NCBI GenBank assembly: GCA_945885475.1 | Contig: CAMCYR010000007.1 | Coordinates: forward strand, 1-64,000 | Origin: Chitinophaga pinensis | GTDB taxonomy: Bacteria; Bacteroidota; Bacteroidia; 2-12-FULL-35-15 | Reading direction: 5' to 3' | Length of the DNA: 64,000 nt | Shown: piece by piece, positions 15,526-34,715 of the stretch | How the letters are laid out: the number at the start of each line of letters is the position of its first letter | Position numbering within the stretch: the stretch's first letter is position 1 | Notes under the pieces: generated by a model | Seen by the model: the letters and a program-made list of their open reading frames with translations, nothing else | What the model was told of the DNA's origin: nothing | The model's database searches: none | Program-made: the position numbers and the translations under genes

Positions 15526-15766
15526 TTTTAGAATGCTATTTAACTCAAAGATAAGAGAATTCAATCAACAGCCTTCTGATCATCAGAAACAATTTAATCC
15601 ATTAAAAGATGACGATGTGCAAATATATTCTTTAAATCTGGCAGTTCTGATTCAAAATCAATTCGAAAAAATGTTTAAAAATATGAACAAATCATATCTC
15701 ACCTACAAATTAGTTTTAATCACCTCAATATTGATCGTTAAATAAAATTCATTTCCACTTTTGATT

Positions 15767-15774
15767 TACATTTG
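15767..15774 (+). promoter_or_regulatory. Possible -7 element for lytS
   Basis: TACATTTG fits the -7 consensus and ends 5 bases before the ATG at 15780. No good -33 TTG is at the right distance. If used, transcription would begin at or next to the start codon and the message would be leaderless. Confidence 0.3.
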
Positions 15775-15779
15775 TGTTA

Positions 15780-16826
15780 ATGAACTCAAAAATCAATAAG
15801 TTAATTATTCACATAACAGGCTGTTTAGCATTGCTATCGCTTCCTCTACTATACACACCAAGTCTGTCTTCCGAACTCGAATTTATTAGATCTAGAGGAT
15901 TTCAGCGCGATCTTGTTTTTTCCATATTCCTTATTTTATTTTTTTACCTGAGTTATTTCATTCTTGTACCCAAACTTTATTTCAATAAAAAGTACATTTA
16001 TTTTTTTTCTATTTCAGTTATTTGCTTTTTATTTATTTACACATCAGCCGTACTATTCTTTCCAAAACCACTTCCACTCCATGGGCCTCCACCTCATGCG
16101 GTAGCAGAGCATATTCACAACAAGATGCCACCTCCAGCCGGATATTTCTTTAATGAATTCAGAAAACTTTCTCTTCAGTTTTTGATCGTTTTTATTTTTT
16201 CTTTAATGCTGAAAATAAACAACCGATGGAAAAAATCTGAAAAAGAAAAACTAGATGCCGAATTATCCTACTTAAAAGCGCAAATCAACCCTCACTTTTT
16301 ATTTAATACATTAAACAGCATTTATTCGCTGGCAATTATTAAATCGGACGATGTTGCTTCCTCTATTGTAAAACTTTCGAACATGATGCGCTATGTTTTA
16401 AGTGAAAGCTCAAACGAATTTGTGATTCTGGAGAAAGAGATCGAATATATTCGTAATTACATTGAGTTACAACAAATTCGCTTTGGTAACTTTATTCAGT
16501 TCGATTGTATTATAAGCGGTGACCAAAAAAACAAAACGATTGCTCCCTTAATATTGATCCCTTTCATTGAAAACGCATATAAACATGGGGTGAACGCGGA
16601 AGAAAACTCTGCGATAAAAATTAAAATTGAGATTACAGAGTCGCAATTAATTTTACTGGTAAAAAATAATAAAGTAGTCGTTCAGCGAAGTGAAGAATTA
16701 AAAAGTGGTTTGGGTGTTGAAAATACAAAAAATAGATTGCAGTATATCTATCCGACAAAACATTCACTTATCATTAATGATATAGAAAAAGAATATTCGG
16801 TTTCACTTACATTAAACCTAAAATGA
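15780..16826 (+). CDS. LytS/YehU-type sensor histidine kinase
   Basis: Membrane sensor kinase paired with the LytTR regulator downstream. Predicted helices lie at about residues 9-25, 45-63, 72-94 and 132-146. The periplasmic loop before the last helix is rich in Pro and His (H101, H106, H111, H113). The cytoplasmic part starts with the His-kinase motif LKAQINPHFLFNTLNSIYSL (phospho-acceptor H172 in NPHFLFN) and continues to the ATP-binding region with PFIENAYKHG and GLGVENTKNRL. The ATG at 15780 is preferred to a GTG two codons earlier. The last 4 bases overlap the regulator gene, so the two are co-translated. It opens a 13-kb plus-strand block. Confidence 0.9.
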   Translation: MNSKINKLIIHITGCLALLSLPLLYTPSLSSELEFIRSRGFQRDLVFSIFLILFFYLSYFILVPKLYFNKKYIYFFSISVICFLFIYTSAVLFFPKPLPLHGPPPHAVAEHIHNKMPPPAGYFFNEFRKLSLQFLIVFIFSLMLKINNRWKKSEKEKLDAELSYLKAQINPHFLFNTLNSIYSLAIIKSDDVASSIVKLSNMMRYVLSESSNEFVILEKEIEYIRNYIELQQIRFGNFIQFDCIISGDQKNKTIAPLILIPFIENAYKHGVNAEENSAIKIKIEITESQLILLVKNNKVVVQRSEELKSGLGVENTKNRLQYIYPTKHSLIINDIEKEYSVSLTLNLK

Positions 16827-17518
16827 TAAAAGCGATTGCTATTGACGATGAGATCCCGGCATTAAAGATCATTGAAAATTTCTGTGAACGAACGGGCCTC
16901 ATCGAATTGCAAAAAACATTCTCAAAACCGAATGAAGCTCTGAAGCATCTTCGTAAATTCCCAACCGACCTTCTTTTCCTTGACATAAATATGCCTTCAA
17001 TGTCAGGAATTGAACTTTATAAATCAATCGAACAAAATACAATGGTTATTTTCACAACGGCATACAGCGAATATGCGGTTGAAGGATTTAACTTAAATGC
17101 AATTGATTACCTCCTCAAACCGTATAGCTATGAACGCTTTTTGCAGGCGGTAAATAAGGCGAACGACCTTTCTTTAGTACCCAGCAAACTAGATAAAAAT
17201 CAGGCGCAATATCTTTTTGTACGTGCTGATTATAGCCTTGTTAAAATTGCAATAAACGACATTCTATTTATTGAAGGATTAGATGATTATTTAAAAATTC
17301 ATATTATAAATAGTGCCAAACCTGTTGTCGCCAGAATTACGATGAAAGGCATTATGGAAAAATTATCCCTTGCAGAATTCATCCGGGTTCACCGATCGTT
17401 TATTATTCCGTTCAGTAAAGTAGAAAATGTAAGGAAGAAGATAATATCCATCGGAGGTAAAGAAATCCCTATCGGCAGCAGTTACGAAGCCGATTTTTTT
17501 GCCATTTTCAAAAAGTAG
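16823..17518 (+). CDS. LytTR-family DNA-binding response regulator
   Basis: The 231-residue regulator has a receiver domain (acidic pocket D8-D9, phospho-acceptor D54 in LFLDINMP, conserved TTAYSEYAV and LLKPYS) and a C-terminal LytTR DNA-binding domain at about 130-230 (IEGLDDYLKIHI, FIRVHRSFIIP, IPIGSSY). It is activated by the kinase whose gene it overlaps. Only 7 bases after its stop lies a perfect 9-bp direct repeat with LytTR-site geometry, followed by a promoter for the exported-protein genes, so these genes are its most likely targets. Confidence 0.93.
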   Translation: MIKAIAIDDEIPALKIIENFCERTGLIELQKTFSKPNEALKHLRKFPTDLLFLDINMPSMSGIELYKSIEQNTMVIFTTAYSEYAVEGFNLNAIDYLLKPYSYERFLQAVNKANDLSLVPSKLDKNQAQYLFVRADYSLVKIAINDILFIEGLDDYLKIHIINSAKPVVARITMKGIMEKLSLAEFIRVHRSFIIPFSKVENVRKKIISIGGKEIPIGSSYEADFFAIFKK

Positions 17519-17525
17519 AACTTTT

Positions 17526-17555
17526 TACCGCATTAAATTAAACCTCTACCGCATT
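17526..17555 (+). promoter_or_regulatory. Putative LytTR binding site: TACCGCATT direct repeat
   Basis: TACCGCATT occurs at 17526-17534 and again at 17547-17555, with a 12-base spacer, so the halves are 21 bases apart and on the same DNA face. LytTR regulators characteristically bind 9-bp direct repeats with spacers of about 12 bp. The repeat lies right upstream of the promoter elements at 17559-17589, where an activator would sit. Confidence 0.65.
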
Positions 17556-17558
17556 TTT

Positions 17559-17589
17559 TTGTCAATAATTAACATTAAACCGATATTTG
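17559..17589 (+). promoter_or_regulatory. Promoter for the T9SS-cargo/CotH/VTC gene block
   Basis: TTG (17559-17561), 20 bases, GATATTTG (17582-17589), a near match to TAnnTTTG. The start codon at 17608 follows 18 bases later, which leaves a short leader. The direct repeat at 17526-17555 abuts the -33 element. Confidence 0.5.
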
Positions 17590-17607
17590 ATAAAAATAAT
17601 TTAACCT

Positions 17608-19299
17608 ATGAAAAACCTAAAATTAACAACAAAGCTTTTGACGCTCATTGGCTTTTTTATATTCGCAACTGCTATTGCTCAGCAATCACCTGGGTATACG
17701 CTTTATAGTATTAAAAACAGTACCACAACACAACTGATAGACACCAACAGTGTTGTTTATCACACATGGACACATACCGGAGATCCTACTTGCTATTCAT
17801 CCTATTTGATGCCTGGAGGGTATCTTTGGAGATCTGTTACAAATACAAGCTCCACCTTTATGGGCGGACCAATTTCGGGACAAGTTCAAAAAATTGATTA
17901 TGCTGGAACTTTAGTATGGGACTTCGTATATTCAACAACAACCTATGTTACACATCATGATATTTGTCCGATGCCCAATGGGAATGTATTGCTCATAGCA
18001 TATGAATTAAAATCCGCAGCCGATGTTGCTGCTGCAGGTTGCAGTTCATTCAGCGGAGCAATGTGGCCAGATAAGATCGTTGAAGTTCAACCTACAGGTG
18101 CAACAACAGGAACAATTGTTTGGGAATGGCACGCCTGGGATCATTTAGTGCAAAACACAAATGCTTCTGCGGCAAATTACCAGACTTCGATCGTAAACCA
18201 TCCCGAACTTTTAAATATTAATTACGGTGCTAAAAAAGATTGGTTACACATGAATGGAGTTAACTACAATCCGATATTAGATCAGGTTACATTTAGTTCC
18301 CACAATTTAAATGAAATGTATGTTGTGGACCACAGCACATCAACAGCAGAAGCGGCAAGCCATACAGGTGGAAATTCAGGAAAAGGCGGAGATATTTTAT
18401 ATCGCTGGGGAAATCCTGCAGCTTATGGAGCATCCGGAACCGCAATATTGAATGTTGTTCACGATGCCCATTGGGTTCCTGAAGGGTCTCCTAATGCAGG
18501 ATCTTTAGTTGGGTACAACAACAAAGGTATTTCTGGAACAGCATCCTGTGTCGACATTTTTACTCCACCTGTTTCTGGTTATAATTATTCATTAACACTT
18601 GGTTCGGCATACACACCTTCAACCTATTCATTTCGTCAGGCTTCTGGTGGATACAATAGTAATGAAGGAGGCTCGCAACAATTACCAAACGGCAACACAT
18701 TATTGTCAATGGGTATATCCGGATATTTAAAAGAATTCAGTCCGTCAGGTGCACTACTGTGGTCAAAAACACTAACCGGAGGTTGCGCAAAAGCATTCAG
18801 ATATACCGACTGTTACATTAATAATGCAGCACCTGCGACACCGACAATTTCAGCAGCAGCCAATATATTAACATCCTCTGCTGCAACAACCTATCAGTGG
18901 TATTTGAATGGAGCACTAATTTCGGGAGCAACGAATCAAACATACAATGCAACTGTTAGTGGTATTTATGTTGTGCGGACAACTGATATCAATGGTTGTG
19001 TAAATGTTTATTCTGACGGATTTAATTTCTCTTTTGTAACGGGCGTGTCTGAAAACAATTTAGCGAATGGAATTATTATTTATCCAAATCCGACAAACGG
19101 CATTGTAACTATCGATGCTTCCATTTTAGTTGGAATAAATTACGAGGTTGCTATATTTGATCTTGTAGGAAAATTAGTTTTGAAAGAAAAAAATGTATCC
19201 TCTATTGATTTATCTGCATATGAAAATGGCGTATATATCATCAAAATAACAAGTATAACAGCAGGTTCTGTTTCAAAAAGAATTTCATTAATTAAATAA
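17608..19299 (+). CDS. Arylsulfotransferase-like beta-propeller protein with T9SS sorting domain
   Basis: The 563-residue protein has a signal peptide (to about AIAQQ, residue 26), an arylsulfotransferase (ASST)-type propeller over about 40-400, an Ig-like linker (AATTYQWYLNGALISGATN) and a type A sorting domain (IYPNPTNGIVTI ... ENGVYIIKI ... KRISLIK). Family-like motifs include DWLHMNGVNYN, FSSHNLNEMYVVDHST and NVVHDAHWVPEG near residue 284, which has the histidines expected of the active site. ASST enzymes move sulfate between phenolic compounds. Whether this one is catalytic is not shown. It is the first cargo gene after the regulator. Confidence 0.8.
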   Translation: MKNLKLTTKLLTLIGFFIFATAIAQQSPGYTLYSIKNSTTTQLIDTNSVVYHTWTHTGDPTCYSSYLMPGGYLWRSVTNTSSTFMGGPISGQVQKIDYAGTLVWDFVYSTTTYVTHHDICPMPNGNVLLIAYELKSAADVAAAGCSSFSGAMWPDKIVEVQPTGATTGTIVWEWHAWDHLVQNTNASAANYQTSIVNHPELLNINYGAKKDWLHMNGVNYNPILDQVTFSSHNLNEMYVVDHSTSTAEAASHTGGNSGKGGDILYRWGNPAAYGASGTAILNVVHDAHWVPEGSPNAGSLVGYNNKGISGTASCVDIFTPPVSGYNYSLTLGSAYTPSTYSFRQASGGYNSNEGGSQQLPNGNTLLSMGISGYLKEFSPSGALLWSKTLTGGCAKAFRYTDCYINNAAPATPTISAAANILTSSAATTYQWYLNGALISGATNQTYNATVSGIYVVRTTDINGCVNVYSDGFNFSFVTGVSENNLANGIIIYPNPTNGIVTIDASILVGINYEVAIFDLVGKLVLKEKNVSSIDLSAYENGVYIIKITSITAGSVSKRISLIK

Positions 19300-19318
19300 T
19301 AAAGAAATTTTCACGCTC

Positions 19319-20323
19319 ATGAAAAAAATCATATTAATAGCTGTATTGTTATCACTCCAATCGATTGGCTTTGCAAAAAAAGTAAAATTTGCTGTTGACA
19401 TGACGGGGCTAACGATCAGTACATTTGGAATGCATATTTCCGGTGATTTTCAAACTATTGCTGGTTTTGCAGGGGGAGATTGGATGCCCAACACCACGCC
19501 ACTTGCTCAGGAAACTGCAGACACAAATATTTATAGTATTGTTGTAGATATTCCTGCGTTTGCAAAATACGAATATAAATTCGTGAATGGCGATCAGTTT
19601 TATGAAGCAGAATTTGTTCCTATTGAATCTCGTGTAGGATATAATTTTGACGACAACCGTTGGATTTACGTTGACTCACTTTCAAATGATACTTCTTTTG
19701 TTGGCGCAATCCGATTTTCACAAAATGCTCCGAAAGGTTATCATTTGTTAAGATTGAAAGTTGATATGAGAAACGCTGGACTTATCGACCCCTCTGGAAC
19801 ACATGTTGGCGGCAGTTTTCAGGGATGGAATACAAACAACAGTATTTTATATAGTTTGAATGATACGATTGAAGAATTAATCGTATACATTGATACATTA
19901 ATTACCAGCGCACAATTCAAATATATTAATGGTAATACATCGGTAGGATATGAAACCGTTCCCGCAATTTGTGCTTCGTCAGGAAATCGGGACTTCCAAA
20001 TCCCCAAAGATACGGTTCTGAATGTTGTTTGCTTTTCAGAATGCATGGATTGTCTGAATGTAGGAATTGCTGAAAGGGCAGCAACAGAAAATGTTAATTT
20101 ATATCCTAATCCAACAAACGATTTCAGTGTTTTGGAATTTGAGAATAACGATATTCGAACTATTTCAATTATAAACACGCTAGGCAGTATCGTTCGCTCG
20201 TATTCAAATATAAATGAAACTAGTTTAACGATAGAGAAAAATGATTTAAAGAAAGGAATCTATTTTATAATTATTCGTGCGAGCGAAAATAATATCTCAA
20301 CAACTAAATGGGTCATTCAATAA
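19319..20323 (+). CDS. Secreted protein with two carbohydrate-binding-like beta-sandwich modules and T9SS sorting domain
   Basis: The 334-residue protein has a signal peptide (to about GFAKK), two related modules at about 22-118 and 145-235 and a type A sorting domain (LYPNPTNDFSVLEF ... LKKGIYFIII ... TTKWVIQ). Each module starts with a VDM strand (KFAVDMTG; LKVDMRNAG), contains a GG/GS-F turn (HISGDFQ; HVGGSFQGWN), and ends with FKY/YKFVNG (KYEYKFVNGD; AQFKYINGN). This pattern resembles starch-binding (CBM20/CBM48-like) modules. The ligand is unknown. It starts 19 bases after the upstream gene, so the two are probably co-transcribed. Confidence 0.7.
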   Translation: MKKIILIAVLLSLQSIGFAKKVKFAVDMTGLTISTFGMHISGDFQTIAGFAGGDWMPNTTPLAQETADTNIYSIVVDIPAFAKYEYKFVNGDQFYEAEFVPIESRVGYNFDDNRWIYVDSLSNDTSFVGAIRFSQNAPKGYHLLRLKVDMRNAGLIDPSGTHVGGSFQGWNTNNSILYSLNDTIEELIVYIDTLITSAQFKYINGNTSVGYETVPAICASSGNRDFQIPKDTVLNVVCFSECMDCLNVGIAERAATENVNLYPNPTNDFSVLEFENNDIRTISIINTLGSIVRSYSNINETSLTIEKNDLKKGIYFIIIRASENNISTTKWVIQ

Positions 20324-20329
20324 AATATT

Positions 20330-22630
20330 ATGCGTATTAAAAAAAATTGTGTTTACTTTTCTGTTTTAATTGTTTTACTTTCATTTGCACAAAAAAGTAA
20401 AGCACAAAGTCCTTTTTACAATATAAGCACAATTCAAAAAATAGAATTATTTTTTTCGATAACCGATTGGGATTTCCGCATGGATACAGCCAAATCGGGT
20501 TCTGAAGGTTATTTACTATCTGATTCCATAAAAATAAATGGACTAGCGCTGGATAGTGTTGGGGTGAAATACAAAGGGAACAGTTCTTATAATCCATCCA
20601 ATTTTAAAAACCCATTTCACATTGCTATTGACGAATTTAAGAATCAATCATATTTGGGTATCAAGGATATTAAATTAGGAAACGGCTACTCGGATCCTTC
20701 CATGATACGAGAAGTTTTGGCATATAGCATATTGAATAATTATATGGATTGCCCGGAGTCCAATTTTTCACAAGTATATATTAATGGAACCTATATTGGA
20801 TTATATTCTAATACCGAAAACATTGGAAAAGATTTTTGTTCGTCAAAATTTTACTCTTCACAAAATACATTCATTAAATGTAATCCAATAGTAAATCCTG
20901 GTCCAACAACAAAATGTAATTTGAAATACATCACAACAGGTGACAGCACGGCGTATTTTAATTTCTATGAAATAAAATCAAACTCCGGATGGAACGAATT
21001 GGTTAAACTATGTGATACAGTTACAAATATTCCTGCAAGCATTGGCTCTATAATGGACATGGACAGAGTGATATGGATGTTAGCATTCAACAATGAATTA
21101 GTAAATCTGGATAGCTATACCGGTGCTTTTTGTCAGAATTATTATTTATACAAAGACAATACACGCAGGTTTAATCCGGTTGTATGGGATCTGAACATGT
21201 CATTCGGAGGATTTCCTTTCGTTGGAGCGGGATACACGAGTATGGGAACACTTAGTTTAACGAACATGGAACAACTTTCGCCTACCATTCATTCAGCAGA
21301 TCCATATTGGCCATTGATAAATGATGTAATGAACAATGCCATGTATAAAAGAATGTATTTTGCTCATATGCGAACGATCAATAACGAAATGTTTGTAAGC
21401 AATTTATATCAAACTACGGCAGTAACATTGCAAACAATTATTGATACGGCTGTTCAATCCGATGCTAATAAATTTTTTAGCTATACTAATTTTCAAAACG
21501 GCCTGTCGGCAAATGTTGTAGCAGGCAGCACTACAATTCCGGGAATCAGTAATTTAATGTCGGCACGTCAAACATATTTATCAACTCTCCCCGATTTTAC
21601 AGCGATTCAACCTACCATTACTGCGATTACACCAACCATTCTTTCTCCACTTATTAACAGCAATGTAACCATTTCAGCAAATGTCATCAACACAAATACA
21701 AATGGCGTTTATTTGGGCTACCGATTGAATAGTCAGGATAAATTCACACTCACACTCATGTATGATGATGGATTACATAACGATGGCTCGTCCGGAGATA
21801 ATGTTTATGGTGCTTCCTTTATTATATCTTCTGCTCAGGCACACTATTATATTTATGCCGAAAATAATACTGCAGGAATATTTTCTCCGGAAAGAGCTGA
21901 ACATGAATTCTATCTGTTACAAGCAAATGTGGCAACAGCATCAGTAGGCGAAGTTGTGATTAATGAGTTCTTAGCGAGTAATGTATCCATGAATACAAAT
22001 GAATCTGGTCAATATCAGGATTGGATTGAATTACACAATTTAACATCAACAGCACTCGATCTTTTTGGATTATACCTTTCGGATAACTATTCGAATCCGA
22101 CAAAATTTGCAATCCCTGCAAATACAGTTATTCCTGCAAATGGTTATTTAATTATCTGGGCAGATGAAAATCCGACAACGGCTGCTTATGTTCATTCCAA
22201 CTTCAAGTTATCGGCCAGCGGAGAAGAATTAATGCTGAGTAATTCAACCGGTGTTGTTTTTGACAGTGTTACGTTCGGACCCCAGACGGCTAATATTGCT
22301 TTAGCAAGATGCGCTAATGGAACAGGAAATTTCACACCGCTTTACCCAACTTTTAATTCATGGAATTGTATTAGCGGCATTTCAGAAAATGAAACACAAT
22401 CAAAGAACTTACTGATTTATCCAAACCCAGCAAAAGATAACATCACGCTAGTATATCCTTCGGATGAAAAAGAAAACGAAATACGGATCTATAATTCATT
22501 GGGCGAAATATTGATCAAACAAATATCAAGTAAGAACGAAGAAAAAATTAATCTTTCAGAGCTTAAATCGGGTGTATATTTAATAAATATCAATCAAAGA
22601 TTCTTTAAACAACTGGTTATTGTAAAATAA
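20330..22630 (+). CDS. CotH kinase-family protein with lamin-tail domain and T9SS sorting domain
   Basis: CotH proteins are atypical protein kinases; the founding member phosphorylates spore-coat proteins. This 766-residue form has a signal peptide, a CotH domain over about 75-420 (VKYKGNSSYNPSNFKNPFH, GTYIGLYSNTENIGKDF, NLDSYTGAFCQNYYLYKDN), a lamin-tail domain at about 540-645 (VVINEFLASN ... DWIELHN) and a type A sorting domain. The motif usually written WDxDxxFG reads WDLNMSFGG near residue 285. The first Asp is kept but the second is Asn, so activity may be altered. It starts 6 bases after the preceding stop. Confidence 0.87.
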   Translation: MRIKKNCVYFSVLIVLLSFAQKSKAQSPFYNISTIQKIELFFSITDWDFRMDTAKSGSEGYLLSDSIKINGLALDSVGVKYKGNSSYNPSNFKNPFHIAIDEFKNQSYLGIKDIKLGNGYSDPSMIREVLAYSILNNYMDCPESNFSQVYINGTYIGLYSNTENIGKDFCSSKFYSSQNTFIKCNPIVNPGPTTKCNLKYITTGDSTAYFNFYEIKSNSGWNELVKLCDTVTNIPASIGSIMDMDRVIWMLAFNNELVNLDSYTGAFCQNYYLYKDNTRRFNPVVWDLNMSFGGFPFVGAGYTSMGTLSLTNMEQLSPTIHSADPYWPLINDVMNNAMYKRMYFAHMRTINNEMFVSNLYQTTAVTLQTIIDTAVQSDANKFFSYTNFQNGLSANVVAGSTTIPGISNLMSARQTYLSTLPDFTAIQPTITAITPTILSPLINSNVTISANVINTNTNGVYLGYRLNSQDKFTLTLMYDDGLHNDGSSGDNVYGASFIISSAQAHYYIYAENNTAGIFSPERAEHEFYLLQANVATASVGEVVINEFLASNVSMNTNESGQYQDWIELHNLTSTALDLFGLYLSDNYSNPTKFAIPANTVIPANGYLIIWADENPTTAAYVHSNFKLSASGEELMLSNSTGVVFDSVTFGPQTANIALARCANGTGNFTPLYPTFNSWNCISGISENETQSKNLLIYPNPAKDNITLVYPSDEKENEIRIYNSLGEILIKQISSKNEEKINLSELKSGVYLININQRFFKQLVIVK

Positions 22631-22686
22631 TACTCCGCTTTTCATCGTGTAAATAATAATGCTAAATTTACCTCAAAAGCGAGAAT

Positions 22687-25600
22687 ATGTTTAACCCTTA
22701 CTCAACACTTCTTCTATACAGTATTATCATTTGTACTTTTTCATCGAAAGCACAAATTGTAATAAACGAAGTATCAAGTGCTAGTGTATCTAATTATTTA
22801 GATGAAGATGGTGATCAGGAAGACTGGATTGAATTTTATAACACTTCCTCCTCGTCCGTAAACATGGGTGGATATACGATTACCTCTGATGAAAATGGAA
22901 CACTAAAATCCTGGACTTTCCATAGCATCAATATAAAAGCGAACGATTACCTTACTGTTTTTTGCTCTAAAAAAAATCGTAAAGCTTATTTTGATCATTG
23001 GGAAGTGCCTGTTTACCCTCAGCTTTCTTGGAAATATTTTTTAGGCACCACAAATCCTCCTCCAGCCTGGACAGATATTACCTTCAACGATGCATCATGG
23101 ATGAGCGGAATGGGCGGCATAGGATATGGCGATGGTGATGATAGCACCATTACTCCACCAATAAGTTCTATTTTTATGCGCACAACTTTCAACATTGCTG
23201 ATACAAGTAAAATTCCGACCGCATTATTATTCCTGGATTACGATGATGGTTTTGTCGCGTATTTAAATGGCGTTGAAATTGCTCGTGCTAACATTGGCGT
23301 TTACGGAGATCATCCGAACTTCAACACGTGGGCATATGACGAACACGAGGCAACAGTATATTCAACTGGAAATTTTTCTGCCGCCTATTTCGTTTCTCCT
23401 GAAGTGGTTGATGCTGCAATTAAACCGGGAACAAATGTATTTAGCATTCAAACACACAATTTCTCCGGAGGAACGGATGACTTAACATCGATTCCATATT
23501 TTCTTATAGGAGTAAATGATACGCTTGTAACTTATTACCCTTTCTCTGCAACCGTTAAGCTTCATACCAATTTCAACTTAAACAGTACGGGACAAAACTT
23601 AATTTTATCTGACCCAGCTGGAAATATTGTTGACCAACACTCCATCGGGAATATGCAATTGAATAATACTTTCGGAAGAAGACCAAATGGTTCCAACAAT
23701 TGGTATTACTTTGAAAGCCCAACTCCCGATACAACCAATAATACTTCCGCTTTTTATACCAACTATTTAAGTAAACCGGCTTTTTCTTTGAATGCAGGAT
23801 TTTATAATTCGACTCAAACACTTTCTATCACTTCAGCAACAGGATTGGTCAGATACACATTAGACGGAAAAGATCCGAATCAAACAAGTGCATTGTATAC
23901 TATACCAATAAATATTGATACCACTACCGTTGTGAGAGCGCGAACATATTCAACCAATCCTTTGGAATTGCCAAGTGAAATTATTACAAACACTTATTTC
24001 ATAAATGAAGACATTACTCTTCCAGTAGTTGCTTTAACCAGTGATCCGTATAATTTATTTGATTATAATTATGGAATTTATGTTTTTGGTCCTAATGCAG
24101 ATACCGTGAATGTCCCTTTTCAAGGCTCTAATTTCTGGCAGGGATGGGAACGACCTGCAAACATAGAATACTTCGACACAGAAGGGAATCTCGGTTTTGA
24201 AACCCCTTCTTCCATTGCCATTCAGGGGAACTATTCCAAAGCATGGCCACAACGTGGATTTACAGTAAAAACAAAAGAAAACTATAAGGGGGAAACAATC
24301 GATTATCCTTTGTTTCCCGACAAGCCGCATATTTCAAAATATAAATCATTCAACATCCGGAATGCCGGATCGGATTGGAACAAAGCACATATGCGTGATC
24401 GTTTCAATCAAAAAAATGCTCAAAAAAGTACAAGCCTCGATATAATGGATGGTAAACCTTGCGTACTTTTTATCAATGGTAACTATTGGGGTGTTTATGA
24501 GCTTCGTGAAAAACAAGACAAAGATTACATTGAAAATAATAGTGGTGTACCTGCCGACAAGATCGACTTCCTGCAATTTGACGGAAGCATAATCGAAGGC
24601 AGCAATACCGCATTTTTAAACATGTCCAATTATATAGGAACAAACGATATGTCAGTAGCTGCAAATTACAATACAGCAAAAAGCATGTTAGACATTGAAA
24701 ACTTTTGTGACTATTTTATTACAGAAACATATATTTTAAACATCGACTGGCTGGGCAGTTACACGAACAACATTAAATTCTGGAGACCAACTAATCCTGT
24801 TGGAAAATGGCGTTATGTTTTATGGGATACTGATTTATCACTCGGATTTGGATCTGCATTGGGTGGATCAGTAAATACCGACTTCTTGGATGTAGCAATT
24901 CACCCTACAACGGCAAACCCTCATTCCACAATGCTTGCCGGACTACTTGAAAACACAGAATTCAAAAATTATTTTGTTGATCGTTACGCGGATTTGATGA
25001 ATACTATTTTTCTTCCAAGCACAATGCAACAAAATGTGGATGAAATACATGATGAAATGTTACCTGAAATGGAAAGACATTTTAATCGCTGGGGCGGAAG
25101 TTTTTGGGGAGGACTGATTGGTCCGTCGAGCAATGTAACTGAATGGGAAAACGAAATTGATACAATGATGGTGTTTGCAAACGACAGGATTAATTTCGTT
25201 CGTAATCAGATACAAAACCAATTTTCACTCGCAAAACAAGTTGATGTTTTATTAGACGTTACTCCTGATGGTGCAGGAAAAATAAAGATCAGTACGATTA
25301 CACCGGAAACGCTGCCTTGGACAGGTGTATATTTTGACGGTGTCCCGGTAACGATTACTGCAATTGCTAACCCCGGTTATGAATTCAACTATTGGGAAGC
25401 AAATAATAACATTACCACAAATGACTCTTCTGCCGGAATAACGCTGAATATTTCTTCAGACGACTTGTTTAAAGCACATTTTGACTTTCTGGAACCCGGT
25501 ATGGATGTTTATCCCAACCCTTTTAACGACATCGTCACCATTAATTATCAGATTCCTGAAAGCATGCAGGTTAGCATAAAATTATATTCTATTCTGGGCC

Positions 25601-25767
25601 AAGAAGTTGCTGAAATCGTTTCTCCTGAATCCTTTCAGAAGGAAGGGAGTCATTCTTTAAATTTTAACACAAACAATTTATCCATCTCTCAAGGTTTATA
25701 TTTTATTGAACTTAAGACAAAAGATGTTAGTAAAACAACAAAACTTATAAGAGCAAAATCAAATTAA
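22687..25767 (+). CDS. Large CotH kinase-family protein with lamin-tail and chitobiase-like domains and T9SS sorting domain
   Basis: The 1026-residue multidomain protein has a signal peptide and an N-terminal lamin-tail domain (about 22-100, VINEVSSASV ... DWIEFYN). A jelly-roll-like region (about 110-275) and a chitobiase C-terminal-like beta-sandwich follow (about 365-435, VRYTLDGKDPNQTSALY). The CotH kinase domain covers about 440-830 (GNYWGVYELREKQDKDYIE; intact WDTDLSLGFG near 713). An InlB-like repeat (about 890-930, GYEFNYWEANN) and a type A sorting domain end the protein. Unlike its neighbour it keeps both acidic residues of the WDxD motif. Its export to the surface suggests targets outside the cell. 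Confidence 0.88.
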   Translation: MFNPYSTLLLYSIIICTFSSKAQIVINEVSSASVSNYLDEDGDQEDWIEFYNTSSSSVNMGGYTITSDENGTLKSWTFHSINIKANDYLTVFCSKKNRKAYFDHWEVPVYPQLSWKYFLGTTNPPPAWTDITFNDASWMSGMGGIGYGDGDDSTITPPISSIFMRTTFNIADTSKIPTALLFLDYDDGFVAYLNGVEIARANIGVYGDHPNFNTWAYDEHEATVYSTGNFSAAYFVSPEVVDAAIKPGTNVFSIQTHNFSGGTDDLTSIPYFLIGVNDTLVTYYPFSATVKLHTNFNLNSTGQNLILSDPAGNIVDQHSIGNMQLNNTFGRRPNGSNNWYYFESPTPDTTNNTSAFYTNYLSKPAFSLNAGFYNSTQTLSITSATGLVRYTLDGKDPNQTSALYTIPINIDTTTVVRARTYSTNPLELPSEIITNTYFINEDITLPVVALTSDPYNLFDYNYGIYVFGPNADTVNVPFQGSNFWQGWERPANIEYFDTEGNLGFETPSSIAIQGNYSKAWPQRGFTVKTKENYKGETIDYPLFPDKPHISKYKSFNIRNAGSDWNKAHMRDRFNQKNAQKSTSLDIMDGKPCVLFINGNYWGVYELREKQDKDYIENNSGVPADKIDFLQFDGSIIEGSNTAFLNMSNYIGTNDMSVAANYNTAKSMLDIENFCDYFITETYILNIDWLGSYTNNIKFWRPTNPVGKWRYVLWDTDLSLGFGSALGGSVNTDFLDVAIHPTTANPHSTMLAGLLENTEFKNYFVDRYADLMNTIFLPSTMQQNVDEIHDEMLPEMERHFNRWGGSFWGGLIGPSSNVTEWENEIDTMMVFANDRINFVRNQIQNQFSLAKQVDVLLDVTPDGAGKIKISTITPETLPWTGVYFDGVPVTITAIANPGYEFNYWEANNNITTNDSSAGITLNISSDDLFKAHFDFLEPGMDVYPNPFNDIVTINYQIPESMQVSIKLYSILGQEVAEIVSPESFQKEGSHSLNFNTNNLSISQGLYFIELKTKDVSKTTKLIRAKSN

Positions 25768-25851
25768 TTAAGAAAATAATTTAATTTTAAATAAATAACC
25801 AATTAAATTATTTAACTTTAAAGTAACCTAATTTTAACAATTTAAATTACA

Positions 25852-26262
25852 ATGAAAAAAATAGTTTCTATTCTAATTCTCTCGCTAAGTACAATGCTTA
25901 TTTCTTGTGAAAAACCGGAAGGTCAGGGTGGCGATTCAACCATTACAGGAAAAGTACATGTAACAAATTATAATGCAACATTTACGGTCGTGAATTCAAC
26001 TTATTTCGGCGGTGATGTGGATGTATTTATTGTTTATGGTAATGATGCAACCTATGGCGACAAAACCTCTACCGGACCTGATGGCGTATTTGAATTTAAA
26101 TATTTACGTACTGGGAATTATAAGGTTTTTGTTTATTCAAAAGACAAAGCAGCATATCTTGCAGGTAATATAAATGCACCAGAAACTACTGTTTTCAAAT
26201 CAGGAGAGATAACCGATAAAAAACAAACTGTTGATTTCGGTACACTGGAAATATTCAAATAA
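25852..26262 (+). CDS. Small lipoprotein with a predicted beta-sandwich domain
   Basis: The 136-residue protein has a lipoprotein signal peptide with lipobox LISC (C19). The rest resembles a carboxypeptidase-regulatory-like fold: STITGKVHVTN at the start, then GPDGVFEFKYLRTGNYKVFV, the usual turn of such domains. It is probably anchored in the outer membrane and may act as a scaffold or binding partner for its neighbours, which is inference. It follows CotH after 84 AT-rich bases and precedes the next gene by 23 bases. Confidence 0.75.
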   Translation: MKKIVSILILSLSTMLISCEKPEGQGGDSTITGKVHVTNYNATFTVVNSTYFGGDVDVFIVYGNDATYGDKTSTGPDGVFEFKYLRTGNYKVFVYSKDKAAYLAGNINAPETTVFKSGEITDKKQTVDFGTLEIFK

Positions 26263-26285
26263 TATTCAACCTGACATCTATTATT

Positions 26286-26855
26286 ATGAAATATCCGACA
26301 ACGGTCTTTATTCTATTTTTAGCTCTTTTAACTGTGAATTCATTTTCGCAAAGCAAAAAAGAAGTGAAAAAATTCAAGATCAAATCCATCACTAACATTG
26401 TTACTGAATCAATTGACGGCAAAGAAAAAACACGTACAGATTCGTATCAAAAATTTGATAAATCCGGCAATATTCTGGAAGAATTCGAATATAACAAAGA
26501 TGGCAGTTTCAAAAAGAAAGAAAGTCACAAATACAATAAGAACAATGACAACACCGAAGATATCATCTTTGATGAAAAGGGGAATGTGCAAAAGAAAACG
26601 GTAACAGAATACAACATAAATAAAGACAAAATAAGTGAAACAGTTTACGACGAAAAGGGTAAAGTAATTGAAAAAACACAATTCGGATATAATCTCAAAG
26701 GCTATAGATCTTATGAAATTACGACTGATGAAAAAGGTAAAATGATCAAAAAATCAATTTATGCTTACGACAAAAACGGTTTGAAAACCGAGAAAAAAAC
26801 AAGCGATGTAAATGGAGCAGTGATCTCTGTTAAAAAATATAATTACGAATATTAA
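26286..26855 (+). CDS. Secreted repeat protein (DEKGK repeats)
   Basis: The 189-residue protein has a signal peptide (to about NSFSQ) and then about five imperfect repeats of 20-25 residues of the form Y-x-DEKGKxxxK, for example IIFDEKGNVQKKTVTEYN, TVYDEKGKVIEKTQFGYN and ITTDEKGKMIKKSIYAYD. The repeats are lysine-rich (predicted basic protein) and resemble YD/MORN-like repeats of surface proteins. It lacks a T9SS sorting domain, so it is probably periplasmic or released by another route. The gene ends 2 bases before the VTC gene. A basic partner beside a polyphosphate polymerase is noteworthy, but no function is proven. Confidence 0.7.
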   Translation: MKYPTTVFILFLALLTVNSFSQSKKEVKKFKIKSITNIVTESIDGKEKTRTDSYQKFDKSGNILEEFEYNKDGSFKKKESHKYNKNNDNTEDIIFDEKGNVQKKTVTEYNINKDKISETVYDEKGKVIEKTQFGYNLKGYRSYEITTDEKGKMIKKSIYAYDKNGLKTEKKTSDVNGAVISVKKYNYEY

Positions 26856-26857
26856 TT

Positions 26858-27625
26858 GTGACGGAATTAAGTACCATATTAAAAGAGTTTACTCCCATCG
26901 CCCTTAAGGAAATGGACAGAGTGAAACTAATGGACAGAACGGACACGAAATTTATTTTTAAGTACGACCAACTGCATGAGCTATTAGATCAATTAAAAGA
27001 AGATTACAGCATTCTGGAAGTAAACGGAAACAGGTTAAGTAGATATGAATCGCTATATTTCGACACAAAAAATTTCGACTTATACCACTGTCATCACAGA
27101 GGAAAAGCAAGTCGTTTTAAAATCAGATTCAGAAAATATGTTGAATCTGAATTGCATTTTTTTGAGGTGAAATTCAAAAACAATAAAGGAAGAACCATAA
27201 AAGACAGAGTCAAACAAAAGGAGATCGATGGGAGTATAAAAGAAAATGCTGAGGAATTACTGAATGATAAAACACCTTTAAAATCGAGCAACTTAGAGGC
27301 TAAGATCTGGGTAAATTATTCAAGAATAACCTTTGTAAACAAACTTTCCCCTGAACGCGTAACCATTGATTTGAATCTAACTTTTAAAAATAACGAACAA
27401 ATTAAAACTATTCACAATTTAGTAATTGCAGAAGTGAAACAGGACAAAGCAATTACATCAACATTCATCAAATTAATGAAAAAGAACCATATTCGCGAAG
27501 GCTCCATCAGCAAGTATTGTTATGGAATTATAAGCTTGTATGAAAAAGTAAAACACAACAACTTTAAACCAAAACTAACCTTAATAAAAAAAACATTGTA
27601 TGGTACTTCTGCAAGAATTAACTGA
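26858..27625 (+). CDS. VTC-domain polyphosphate polymerase
   Basis: VTC domains (PF09359) make inorganic polyphosphate in a tunnel lined with basic residues. This 255-residue protein is a stand-alone VTC domain with no SPX domain. Expected features are present: K31 (DTKFIF), YFDT at 67-70, R86-K88-R90-R92 (RFKIRFR), E103 and K105 (FFEVKFK), GR 111-112, K115, R117, Y154-R156 (YSR), R167 and D171 (RVTIDLN), E192-K194 (AEVKQ) and S218-K219-Y220 (ISKY). The start is the GTG at 26858, because the next Met would remove the first conserved strand. It overlaps the DUF4956 gene by 26 bases. Confidence 0.88.
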   Translation: MTELSTILKEFTPIALKEMDRVKLMDRTDTKFIFKYDQLHELLDQLKEDYSILEVNGNRLSRYESLYFDTKNFDLYHCHHRGKASRFKIRFRKYVESELHFFEVKFKNNKGRTIKDRVKQKEIDGSIKENAEELLNDKTPLKSSNLEAKIWVNYSRITFVNKLSPERVTIDLNLTFKNNEQIKTIHNLVIAEVKQDKAITSTFIKLMKKNHIREGSISKYCYGIISLYEKVKHNNFKPKLTLIKKTLYGTSARIN

Positions 27626-28226
27626 AGAAACAATTTCTACAGGCTTTACGCTATTCGAAAAACTAGGTCCTAAATTTTTCATCCGCTTAGCAATAAACCT
27701 TGCTTCGGTATTTATTCTTATCCGATTTATTTATTTTCCGGCTTATAAAAACAGGGAGAACTTTTTTACCCTTTTTATATTCAACCTCATCATTTTCCTA
27801 ATCACATTTATCTTAAATAAATCGGATATGAGTATGGGTGCTGCATTTGGTCTCTTTGCGGTTTTTTCTATGCTGAGATACCGAACAGAAGGCATCTCCA
27901 CAAAAGACATGACCTACCTTTTCTTAGTAATTGCAATGGGATTGATCACTGCATTAAGTAAGGGGAACTGGATGGAGATCTCTTTCATCAATTTGATTAT
28001 CATCATCTTTACGTTTGCCCTGGAGACTAGCATTTTCATGAAAAAAGAAGTTTCTAAAAACGTTCAATATGAAAATATTGAAATGATAAAACCCGAATTC
28101 AGAAACGAGTTGATGGCTGATCTTGAAAATAGAATGGGTCTTAAAATAAACCGGATCTCCATCGGGAAAATTGATTTCCTTAAAGACACAGCCCTCATCA
28201 GAGTGTATTACTACGAGGCGAAATAA
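27600..28226 (+). CDS. DUF4956 membrane protein
   Basis: The 208-residue protein has about five hydrophobic segments (near 29-48, 57-73, 79-95, 104-118 and 124-140) and a soluble C-terminal region. GAAFGLFAVFSMLRYRTEGI is typical of the DUF4956 family. DUF4956 genes often sit next to VTC and CotH genes in diverse bacteria. A role as membrane partner or conduit for the polymerase has been suggested by this linkage but is inference here. The ATG at 27600 lies inside the VTC gene, which indicates translational coupling. Confidence 0.88.
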   Translation: MVLLQELTEETISTGFTLFEKLGPKFFIRLAINLASVFILIRFIYFPAYKNRENFFTLFIFNLIIFLITFILNKSDMSMGAAFGLFAVFSMLRYRTEGISTKDMTYLFLVIAMGLITALSKGNWMEISFINLIIIIFTFALETSIFMKKEVSKNVQYENIEMIKPEFRNELMADLENRMGLKINRISIGKIDFLKDTALIRVYYYEAK

Positions 28227-28257
28227 ATTATTTTATTCTATTTCCATTTATATTAAA

Positions 28258-28941
28258 ATGAAAAAGATTGCTTTTTTAATTATTCTTACAACAGGTATTT
28301 CATCCCACACATTCGCTCAAACGATAAATGACGCGGGACTCTGGTGTACATTTAATGTCGAAAAAAAGCTGACACAAAAATTCGGAGTTTTTCTGACGGA
28401 AGAATATCGCTTGAAAGAAAACTTTTCCAGAAACAATCTATTCTATACTGACCTGGGATTATTTTACAAACCCATTGATTTAATAAAAGTTTCACTCTCC
28501 TATCGTTGCATTCAAAAATTTCAACTTGATGAATCCATTAGTTTTCGCCACAGGATAACACTGGATATACTTTTAAAGAAAAAGATGGAGAAATTTGTGC
28601 TCTCCTTTCGTCAACGCCTACAAACAGAATACAGGAATGTTTATTCAAGTGAATTGGGAAGTATTCCTGAATGGTATACCCGAAGTAAATTGACGGTAAA
28701 ATATGATCTAGACAAACCAATTACTCCTTATGTGGCAGTAGAAATTAGATACCAGATCTATAATCCACGATCAGTTGAGGTTAATAAACTGTGGCACAGA
28801 GCAAGATTTATTGCCGGACTGGATTACAAGAGAAATGACATGCACACGTTTGGAGTCTATTATCTGATACAGCGAGAATGGAATGTATCCTCTCCTCAAA
28901 ATTTATACATTGTAGGATTAGAATATACTCTTTCGTTTTAA
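28258..28941 (+). CDS. DUF2490 outer-membrane protein
   Basis: The 227-residue protein from the ATG at 28258 has a signal peptide (to about HTFAQ) and a beta-barrel pattern of alternating strands, ending in LYIVGLEYTLSF with a terminal Phe as in many outer-membrane proteins. GLWCTFNVEKKLTQKFGVFL at the start, YRLKENFSRNN and the WHRARFIAGLDY region match the DUF2490 family. A longer frame starting at 28171 overlaps the DUF4956 gene and has no signal sequence, so the internal ATG was taken. It closes the plus-strand block and converges on ispF with 6 bases between them. Confidence 0.82.
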   Translation: MKKIAFLIILTTGISSHTFAQTINDAGLWCTFNVEKKLTQKFGVFLTEEYRLKENFSRNNLFYTDLGLFYKPIDLIKVSLSYRCIQKFQLDESISFRHRITLDILLKKKMEKFVLSFRQRLQTEYRNVYSSELGSIPEWYTRSKLTVKYDLDKPITPYVAVEIRYQIYNPRSVEVNKLWHRARFIAGLDYKRNDMHTFGVYYLIQREWNVSSPQNLYIVGLEYTLSF

Positions 28942-28947
28942 AAATTT

Positions 28948-29427
28948 TTATTGTTTCTGAATAAGTGCAACGGCATACGCACAAACACCATCCTCACGTC
29001 CTACATAACCCATCTTTTCGTTTGTAGTCGCTTTTATTCCGATATCATTCACCTCCACGTTTAAAATAGTAGACAATGTTTTTTTCATTTCATCAATATG
29101 CGGATTGATTTTGGGTTGTTCCAATACTAAGGTACAATCAATATTTCCGATTGAATAACCTTCTTTTTTTAGCAATTGACTTACTCGATCCAATAATATT
29201 TTACTATCGATCCCTTTAAATTCCGAAGCGGTATCCGGAAAATGAAATCCAATATCACGCATTCCGGCAGCACCCAAGAGTGCATCACAAATGGCGTGAA
29301 TTAAGACATCTGCATCCGAATGGCCAACAGCACCTTTTGTATGAGCAAGTTTAATTCCACCTAGCCATAAATCATTTCCATCTTTTAATTGATGAACATC
29401 AAATCCGAAACCTACACGTATTTTCAT
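28948..29427 (-). CDS. ispF: 2-C-methyl-D-erythritol 2,4-cyclodiphosphate synthase
   Basis: IspF closes the cyclic diphosphate in the MEP pathway to isoprenoids. The 159-residue protein is standard length. The metal site is visible as GFGFDVHQL (Asp and His) and the later conserved HSDADVLIHAICDALLGAAG, with FPDT and KATTNEKMGYVGR as further family motifs. It follows porV on the same strand but a terminator (29443-29476) lies between them, so it probably has its own transcript. Confidence 0.96.
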   Translation of the reverse strand: MKIRVGFGFDVHQLKDGNDLWLGGIKLAHTKGAVGHSDADVLIHAICDALLGAAGMRDIGFHFPDTASEFKGIDSKILLDRVSQLLKKEGYSIGNIDCTLVLEQPKINPHIDEMKKTLSTILNVEVNDIGIKATTNEKMGYVGREDGVCAYAVALIQKQ

Positions 29428-29442
29428 AGTACTTAATTATTA

Positions 29443-29476
29443 AAAAAATACCCATATTCTTTTAGGTGAATATGGG
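29443..29476 (-). terminator. Rho-independent terminator after porV
   Basis: On the minus strand GAATATGGG and CCCATATTC arms (29451-29459 and 29468-29476, with one further pair possible) enclose an 8-base loop and are followed by a T tract (29443-29449). It lies 24 bases after the porV stop. Confidence 0.8.
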
Positions 29477-29499
29477 CATCTGCAATTAGTTCATTTATA

Positions 29500-30774
29500 T
29501 TATTCTGTTTTTGATTCTTCTTTATTCTGATCTTTAAATGCGTCAAAGTCAAATGTAAGGGTGAATCGCAAAGTATTTTCTAAAGGATTACGTTGTTGGG
29601 TCGGAATCAAATACGCGAAATCCAAACCAAAAACATTATACCTTACACCGGCACCAATCGTAAAAAACTGACGGTTACCTTTGGTAGGATGCTCATAAAA
29701 ATATCCAGCACGAATCGCAAACAAATGGTTGTACCAATATTCTAATCCAACGGAATAGTTGATCTCTCTTAACTCTTCTTTTCCACCACCAGGTGCATCA
29801 CTGAATGAGCCAAACATTCCTTCGGCAACACCTCTGTTTGGATCCTTACCTGAAGCAATAATCGGATTCCCATCAGCATCTGTTGCAACCTCTCCCGTTG
29901 TTACACCATTGGTATCCACTTTATACTTAAACGTAGGTGGAGTTGGCACCATTAATTTATTGATATCCGCCAAAATAGAAATGGAATTATAATCATCCAG
30001 ATCCACATTTAACGATCCGCCTATGCGTAAATTGATCGGAATAAAGTCATCACTATTTTTATCTCCTCTGTCAGAATATGACATTTTATTTCCGATATTA
30101 GAAATATTAAGTCCGAAAGCAACAATCGCTTTTTTATCCGCTAACTTTACTTTGTCTTTCTTATACAATACAGAAAGATCAACACCTACAGCACGTCCTG
30201 GCTTCGTTTGAGCACTTTCAACAAGCGCATTTCCTGTTAAATTAGAATTAATGTAACGCACAGCACCACCTACTGAAAAAGTCTTTGACAACTTTGTAGC
30301 ATAAGCAATATCAATTGAGAATTCGTTCGGACGAAATTGCCCGGTTGTTTGTCCGTTCGCATCTGTAAATGTAATATCACCTAATGAAAAATAACGAAGA
30401 GAAGCGCCTATCGTTCCACGCTTTTTTAACTTATAAAAACCGGTAATGTATGCTAAATTAATATCCGGAACCAAGGCTCTCAACCACGGAGTATAAGAAA
30501 CACCGAAGCCCATCTTTTTATTAGCGAAAGCAAGTTTGGCAGCATTCCAATGAATTGCGTTCACATCATTTAATGATGCGCATCCAACATCTCCCATTCC
30601 ACCGGCTCTTGAATCAGGAGTGATCAACAAAAACGGAACAGCAGTTGTAATTGTATTCAACTGAAGTTCTTCCGCTCTTTGACTGGAACTCGATTGTGCT
30701 TTAATGCCTGTTCCAACAATAAAAGCGATAGCAAATAAAATACTGTTCTTGCCGTTTGCTCTAATATCCATCAT
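29500..30774 (-). CDS. porV: T9SS outer-membrane protein PorV (LptO)
   Basis: PorV is the outer-membrane shuttle that carries type IX cargo from the translocon to the sortase PorU. The 424-residue protein has a signal peptide (to about GIKAQ), then the conserved ITTAVPFLLITPDSRAGGMGDVG start of the mature barrel, FHW-type sequence DVNAIHWNAAKLAF, and a FadL-like barrel ending in LRFTLTFDFDAF. Either of two adjacent ATG codons (30774 or 30771) may be used. It follows porU by 36 bases and forms a unit with it, closed by the terminator at 29443-29476. Confidence 0.95.
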   Translation of the reverse strand: MMDIRANGKNSILFAIAFIVGTGIKAQSSSSQRAEELQLNTITTAVPFLLITPDSRAGGMGDVGCASLNDVNAIHWNAAKLAFANKKMGFGVSYTPWLRALVPDINLAYITGFYKLKKRGTIGASLRYFSLGDITFTDANGQTTGQFRPNEFSIDIAYATKLSKTFSVGGAVRYINSNLTGNALVESAQTKPGRAVGVDLSVLYKKDKVKLADKKAIVAFGLNISNIGNKMSYSDRGDKNSDDFIPINLRIGGSLNVDLDDYNSISILADINKLMVPTPPTFKYKVDTNGVTTGEVATDADGNPIIASGKDPNRGVAEGMFGSFSDAPGGGKEELREINYSVGLEYWYNHLFAIRAGYFYEHPTKGNRQFFTIGAGVRYNVFGLDFAYLIPTQQRNPLENTLRFTLTFDFDAFKDQNKEESKTE

Positions 30775-30810
30775 TCTATTTTTCGTTTTTAAGGATTGCT
30801 AATGTACTAA

Positions 30811-34695: not shown

Positions 34696-34715
34696 ATAAT
34701 TCAATAATTAGATTT

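Follow-up and report, generated by a model that had tools for sequence, protein, structure and literature searches.

A LytTR-linked envelope locus of Bacteroidota carries a conserved VTC-DUF4956 core and replaceable T9SS cargo in the absence of pel genes

What do CotH kinases, VTC-type polyphosphate polymerases and DUF4956 membrane proteins do together when no pel genes lie beside them? In streptococci and clostridia, these three families and DUF4832 accompany pelDEADAFG, and bifidobacteria likewise carry CotH, the polyphosphate polymerase and DUF4956 with pelDEADAFG (PMC7112168). So far the trio has been regarded as belonging to Gram-positive Pel biosynthesis, and the authors of a 2025 study failed to find the arrangement outside the Pel locus (PMC12345266). 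The question is raised by a 64,000-nucleotide stretch of contig CAMCYR010000007.1 (hereafter the window) from an uncultured Bacteroidota bacterium, in which eleven plus-strand genes spanning 15780-28941 join the trio to a LytS/LytTR pair, cargo proteins of the type IX secretion system (T9SS), a lipoprotein, a Lys-rich repeat protein and a DUF2490 barrel (Table 1). An initial annotation, made from the letters alone, gave the gene order, strand and gaps exactly to the base: the LytS and LytTR genes overlap by 4 nt, and from LytTR on the genes are separated by 89, 19, 6, 56, 84, 23, 2, -26 and 31 nt. It also described CotH, VTC and DUF4956 as known neighbors in other bacteria with an unsettled function, in agreement with the literature (PMC7112168, PMC12345266). 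Every family call was confirmed by Pfam and NCBIfam scans and ortholog searches, DUF2490 included. The name LytS needs a qualification: this sensor is a His_kinase-family protein with no match to the Lyt-type five-transmembrane domain.

Comparison across Bacteroidota shows that the conserved unit is a five-gene core made up of the lipoprotein, the Lys-rich repeat protein, VTC, DUF4956 and the DUF2490 barrel, which sequence comparison shows to be vertically conserved. Forty retrieved stretches and 80 named loci yielded 103 non-redundant loci (DUF4956 less than 95% identical), about one-fifth of which belong to the window's own genus and are not fully independent; denominators for locus counts are the loci with enough flank. 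The core order recurs throughout this set, so that neighborhood comparison bears out the claim of an order limited neither to this genome nor to chance. Among 79 related genomes, 55 encode a DUF4956 protein of the window type; for other families of the class, the figure is 25 of 43 genomes at E < 1e-20. VTC lies directly 5' of DUF4956 on the same strand in 94/99 loci, and the two genes overlap in 87/97, with a median of 26 nt that equals the window value. DUF2490 follows DUF4956 in 81/98 loci, whereas upstream come the Lys-rich repeat protein (69/94) and the lipoprotein (58/88).

The remaining genes are less constant. CotH is found upstream on the same strand in 44/82 loci, T9SS-tailed cargo in 43/82, and a LytTR gene within 11 kb of the core in 22/77; CotH and LytTR are therefore not obligatory. 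The association of VTC, DUF4956 and CotH with LytTR regulators and T9SS cargo put forward by the initial annotation is thus frequent but not fixed, and the cargo (ASST-like, carbohydrate-binding-like and CotH proteins) together with the LytTR pair is, as read from gene content, a frequent but replaceable section. The full order from LytS and LytTR through ASST, carbohydrate-binding protein, CotH, lipoprotein, repeat protein, VTC and DUF4956 to DUF2490 also occurs in other families (loci L080, L130 and L164). In Cytophagales (Runella, Dyadobacter, Flectobacillus, Emticicia, Lacihabitans and Larkinella), the CotH that precedes VTC lacks a T9SS tail, and a divergent LytS-LytTR pair often lies alongside.

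Several loci depart from the common form. In L069, L070, L071, L101, L122 and similar loci, DUF4956 is longer (about 250 to 280 aa), with a signal-peptide-like N terminus and a Lys-rich stretch, and in some of them VTC is on the opposite strand or absent. L082 and L083 hold DUF4956 relatives about 45% identical with no VTC gene nearby. L126, on a contig filed as Candidatus Methanoperedens, has a VTC-DUF4956 pair 66% identical to that of the window and represents either Bacteroidota contamination or a recent transfer.

In the window locus and its relatives, CotH, VTC and DUF4956 are arranged together without pel genes, which directly contradicts the Pel-only view. As in the Gram-positive Pel accessory set (PMC7112168; SIR_1591-1594, PMC12345266), the three genes are contiguous, CotH is secreted, and DUF4956 is a multi-transmembrane protein with a cytosolic C-terminal domain. 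Unlike that set, the locus is not contiguous with pelDEADAFG, and neither a DUF4832 hydrolase nor a glycosyltransferase was found in it; the latter is also missing from the immediate flanks and from positions adjoining the core among the relatives' neighbors scanned. It adds the DUF2490 barrel, the lipoprotein, the Lys-rich repeat protein, the T9SS tails and LytS/LytTR. NELoc-2 of Clostridium perfringens resembles the window locus in that CotH and VTC-domain genes lie together but differs in its duplicated VTC, chitin-synthase-like glycosyltransferase and sigma factor, in a Gram-positive host lacking an outer membrane (PMC2879425). In Bacteroides thetaiotaomicron, which is cultured and amenable to genetics, BT3498-BT3499 are listed in one expression table as an adjacent DUF4956-DUF2490 pair, i.e., the same two core genes, whose change with iron is given there as not significant (0.175) (PMC10434189). 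A literature search for DUF2490 with VTC or CotH, and for surface polyphosphate in Bacteroidota, returned nothing direct.

The same genome has a second DUF4956-VTC-CotH set (C18:23643-31858, i.e., L012:8644-16859) within a glycosyltransferase cluster. It is divergent (VTC 25% and DUF4956 23% identical to those of the window) and includes an O-antigen-polymerase-like membrane protein and a phosphoesterase-like protein; one cell therefore uses the trio in two envelope settings. This set also holds a further CotH of 864 aa, which appears to be devoid of the catalytic Asp pair.

Table 1. Genes and predicted regulatory features of the locus in window coordinates
Feature	Position	Strand	Remarks
LytTR-type direct repeat, CACCTA-N15-CACCTC	15700..15726	+	period 21; upstream of lytS; likely autoregulation (predicted)
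-7 box TACATTTG, lytS promoter	15767..15774	+	Bacteroidota TAnnTTTG
LytS-like membrane histidine kinase	15780..16826	+	PF06580 1.1e-29; about four hydrophobic segments
LytTR response regulator	16823..17518	+	PF00072 and PF04397; co-inherited with the locus across families
LytTR-type direct repeat, TACCGC-N15-TACCGC	17526..17552	+	period 21; cargo promoter, predicted site
-7-like box GATATTTG, cargo promoter	17582..17589	+	35 nt from start of second half-site
ASST-like beta-propeller, T9SS type A cargo	17608..19299	+	PF05935 (Arylsulfotrans) 6.4e-15; Por_Secre_tail 6.3e-13
Carbohydrate-binding-like T9SS cargo	19319..20323	+	weak X25/CBM20-like match, below cut-off; Por_Secre_tail above cut-off
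CotH kinase + LTD + Por_Secre_tail	20330..22630	+	PF08757 8.4e-39
LTD + CHB_HEX_C_1 + CotH kinase + Por_Secre_tail (CotH2)	22687..25767	+	PF08757 1.9e-40
Lipoprotein, weak beta-sandwich (CarboxypepD_reg/SdrD_B-like)	25852..26262	+	core; invariant lipobox Cys19, GxGG
Secreted Lys-rich repeat protein, weak RHS/MORN-like beta repeats	26286..26855	+	core
Stand-alone VTC polyphosphate-polymerase-like protein (triphosphate-tunnel)	26858..27625	+	core; PF09359 2.5e-32
DUF4956 membrane protein, cytosolic C-terminal domain	27600..28226	+	core; PF16316 5.1e-52; 26-nt overlap with VTC
DUF2490 outer-membrane beta-barrel	28258..28941	+	core; PF10677 4e-20; DUF2490 in 20/20 orthologs
ispF, porV, porU	28948..34704	-	directly downstream of the locus

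Regulation by a dedicated LytTR pair, another proposal of the initial annotation, is supported by phylogeny and by predicted sites at both promoters. The locus regulators form an 11-row clade (the genus plus L080, L129, L130 and L164; support 100/99) that leaves out all four LytTR paralogs of the same genome, which argues for a pair that is orthologous across families. With five LytTR genes in the 3.06 Mb of the window genome, about 4% of loci would be expected to have one within 11 kb at that density, against the 22/77 observed. Period-21 repeats of the form [TC]ACC[GTC][ACT] precede ASST in 5 of 9 LytTR loci (0.03 expected from dinucleotide shuffles, as for all repeat counts) and lytS in 4 of 20 (0.04 expected), i.e., nine promoters versus 0.07 expected, and occur in none of 104 regions from control loci without LytTR. 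The repeats of relatives were found by aligned reading and a motif-based scan, a scan for near-identical 9-mers being too strict; L050, L063 and L130 share the lytS-upstream arrangement of the window. A scan for sigma-70-type promoters gave matches no more often than chance, and the Bacteroidota -7 box was therefore used: TAnnTTTG lies upstream of lytS in 6 of 10 regions (0.5 expected), and a GAT[AT]TTTG box follows the start of the second ASST half-site by 35 nt in the window, L045, L050 and L063. The best-looking other repeat match in the genome (C28:23655) falls inside a coding gene and was rejected as a target.

The conserved promoter between lytTR and ASST implies at least two transcription units, and the long gap upstream of the lipoprotein gene in some relatives (313 bp in L050) suggests that the core may have a promoter of its own. 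The locus thus probably comprises two or three transcription units rather than a single 13-kb operon. Plus-strand terminator-like matches never fall in the gaps between genes, and an Rfam scan returned no match.

The two central proteins differ in how far their families can be read. VTC matches its domain over the full length (112.8 bits against a cut-off of 23; 2-235/235). A PDB search with the single sequence found no match, and an alignment profile was needed to reach relatives; the one built from 25 divergent VTC sequences matches the yeast Vtc4 structures. The motifs R-x-x-x-K, R-x-R, YFD and R..D-x-L align with 3g3q, the C-terminal part lying outside the structure alignment, and the tunnel-type basic and acidic residues, including E192, K194, S218 and K219, are invariant among the 25 sequences. 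The N-terminal R-x-x-x-K replaces the E-x-E-x-K of other triphosphate-tunnel enzymes. The protein thus shares with the eukaryotic VTC complex (Vtc4; 3g3q, 5iiq, 7ytj) the triphosphate-tunnel catalytic domain, with R-x-R and other tunnel residues matching. Unlike in that complex, neither VTC nor DUF4956 shows SPX or a fused Vtc1-type transmembrane domain in Pfam, and the membrane part is supplied by a protein of its own, DUF4956, which belongs to another family. DUF4956 also matches its domain in full (1-169/169), and its AF2 model (pLDDT 80) combines several membrane helices with a beta-alpha-beta-beta domain at the C terminus, in agreement with the description of the S. intermedius homolog as an MgtC-like transmembrane part plus an ACT domain (PMC12345266). 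An apparent VTC-DUF4956 fusion, a 516-aa open reading frame in G043, was rejected because its N-terminal half is out-of-frame, low-complexity sequence over the neighboring gene, with no VTC match. As for the secreted core proteins, the repeat protein is 19% Lys with a pI of 9.3 and is net positive in 85 of 86 orthologs; its single-sequence model (pLDDT 66) gives OspA/Rhs-like matches at low TM-score, which may serve as a hint of fold.

Export of the cargo to the surface, also put forward at the outset, is supported by T9SS tails or lipoboxes and by the adjoining T9SS sortase genes porU and porV. All four type A C-terminal sorting domains score above the curated cut-offs of Pfam and NCBIfam, and the window encodes PorV (2.3e-149) and PorU (E=0), the two T9SS machinery components that the search covered. 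In relatives, CotH is extracytoplasmic by virtue of a T9SS tail or, in several Cytophagales, of a lipobox that makes it lipoprotein-like. The CotH profiles match Bacillus cereus CotH 5jd9 at 1.8e-34 with both members of the Asp pair aligned, a pair that is catalytic in the CotH family, and a loose catalytic motif is present in 77 of 81 CotH proteins; CotH2 as a single sequence found no match in the PDB and required the alignment profile. The window proteins thus belong by profile to the same family as spore-coat CotH (5jd9, 5jda) and have the catalytic Asp pair in common but, unlike it, are fused to LTD and T9SS domains and are predicted to be surface-directed. A tandem CotH pair with T9SS-like C termini also occurs in the same genome at C21:33312-37488 (L013:7313-11489), with no VTC or DUF4956 nearby. 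Besides the ispF-porV-porU flank, the window locus is bordered on its other side by cytidine deaminase and PDH. The former flank also adjoins the core in several further families, some of which have cytidine deaminase and PDH at the opposite end, and the locus therefore keeps one chromosomal position.

How might these parts work together? Our leading reading, held tentatively and at slightly less than even confidence, is a surface-modification module that spans the envelope, is controlled by LytTR and has a replaceable cargo section; it would include polymer synthesis and export and CotH phosphorylation. Its architecture and regulation are well supported; the polymer synthesis, export and phosphorylation are inferred. 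LytS, on an envelope signal, would activate LytTR, which would raise its own transcription and that of the genes from ASST to DUF2490. Cytosolic VTC would polymerize phosphate from ATP and pass the chain to DUF4956, which would stand in for the membrane portion of yeast VTC. In the periplasm, the polyanion may be retained by the basic repeat protein and the lipoprotein, and DUF2490 may pass it through, or anchor it at, the outer membrane. The surface polymer, CotH-phosphorylated proteins and carbohydrate-binding cargo could then build an anionic matrix or adhesive coat. By analogy, such a module is consistent with S. intermedius, where deletion of the DUF4956 gene raises Pel, deletion of the CotH gene lowers it and both reduce aggregation (PMC12345266). 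Other observations weigh against it. Beyond the incomplete association of CotH and LytTR with the core, deletion of the S. intermedius VTC homolog SIR_1593 had no reported effect (PMC12345266); a PDB fold search with DUF4956 gave no match below 1e-3, so that structure offers no support for a channel role; no fusion of VTC with DUF4956 turned up; and how a kinase at the surface would obtain ATP is an unsolved problem. The genome also encodes PPK1, so that VTC is not needed for bulk polyphosphate and a separate role is likely. Across the genome, the LytTR repeat pattern shows no enrichment (49 matches versus 97 for the reversed pattern), and the case for the predicted sites therefore rests on position and conservation. 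A bolder version, a Gram-negative polyphosphate export system, strikes us as improbable: VTC-DUF4956 would make polyphosphate and drive it through the inner membrane, the repeat protein and DUF2490 would convey it onward to the surface, and there CotH would use it instead of ATP as phosphoryl donor on T9SS-exported proteins. Overall, the initial annotation's view of an inducible machine that makes a phosphate polymer and phosphorylates or decorates surface material is partly supported.

The main competing explanation, which we hold to be rather doubtful, makes VTC-DUF4956 a phosphate- or nucleotide-sensing regulatory pair in the cytoplasmic membrane that tunes the production or phosphorylation of a secreted matrix, with no polymer export. 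The MgtC-like and ACT parts of the S. intermedius homolog, the opposite effects of the DUF4956 and CotH deletions on Pel, which form a regulatory pattern, and the silent VTC deletion (PMC12345266) all suit such a pair, as does the C-terminal domain of the DUF4956 model. A purely cytosolic sensor, however, hardly explains the constant company of an outer-membrane barrel, a lipoprotein and a basic secreted protein, nor the invariant tunnel residues of VTC. It is also conceivable, if unlikely, that the core and the CotH/ASST/carbohydrate-binding cargo are separate units sharing only their position beside porU-porV, the cargo being a LytTR-regulated adhesin or biofilm set and the core having a housekeeping role. 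About half of the core loci are devoid of CotH, some carry unrelated cargo (a T9SS-tailed beta-propeller, PorP/SprF) or a promoter region of their own before the lipoprotein gene (as in L050), and both flanks are constant in several relatives. Yet CotH joins VTC-DUF4956 without T9SS tails in Runella, Dyadobacter and Emticicia, and again in the second locus of this genome and in Gram-positive Pel loci (PMC7112168). Finally, the product could be a phosphorylated or otherwise modified exopolysaccharide, with VTC and CotH acting on a glycan that is synthesized elsewhere, as has been proposed for Pel. The Gram-positive copies beside pelDEADAFG (PMC7112168) and the second copy among glycosyltransferases and a polymerase-like protein speak for this possibility, which we rate as quite unlikely given the lack of glycosyltransferases around the window locus and its scanned relatives.

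To conclude, our analysis goes beyond the initial annotation in three respects: it delimits a core of five genes, it provides evidence that the locus has a dedicated regulator with predicted sites, and it yields a direct counter-example to the notion that the trio is confined to Pel loci. Since the CotH-VTC-DUF4956 trio is widespread in Bacteroidota without Pel, with three constant envelope partners and a regulator, its function is separable from Pel, and the trio also occurs in Gram-negative bacteria as a surface system in its own right. The comparison provides two domains of unknown function with candidate partners and points to cultured hosts in which the function of VTC and DUF4956 may be tested, namely Runella, Dyadobacter and Emticicia, and B. 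thetaiotaomicron for the DUF4956-DUF2490 pair.

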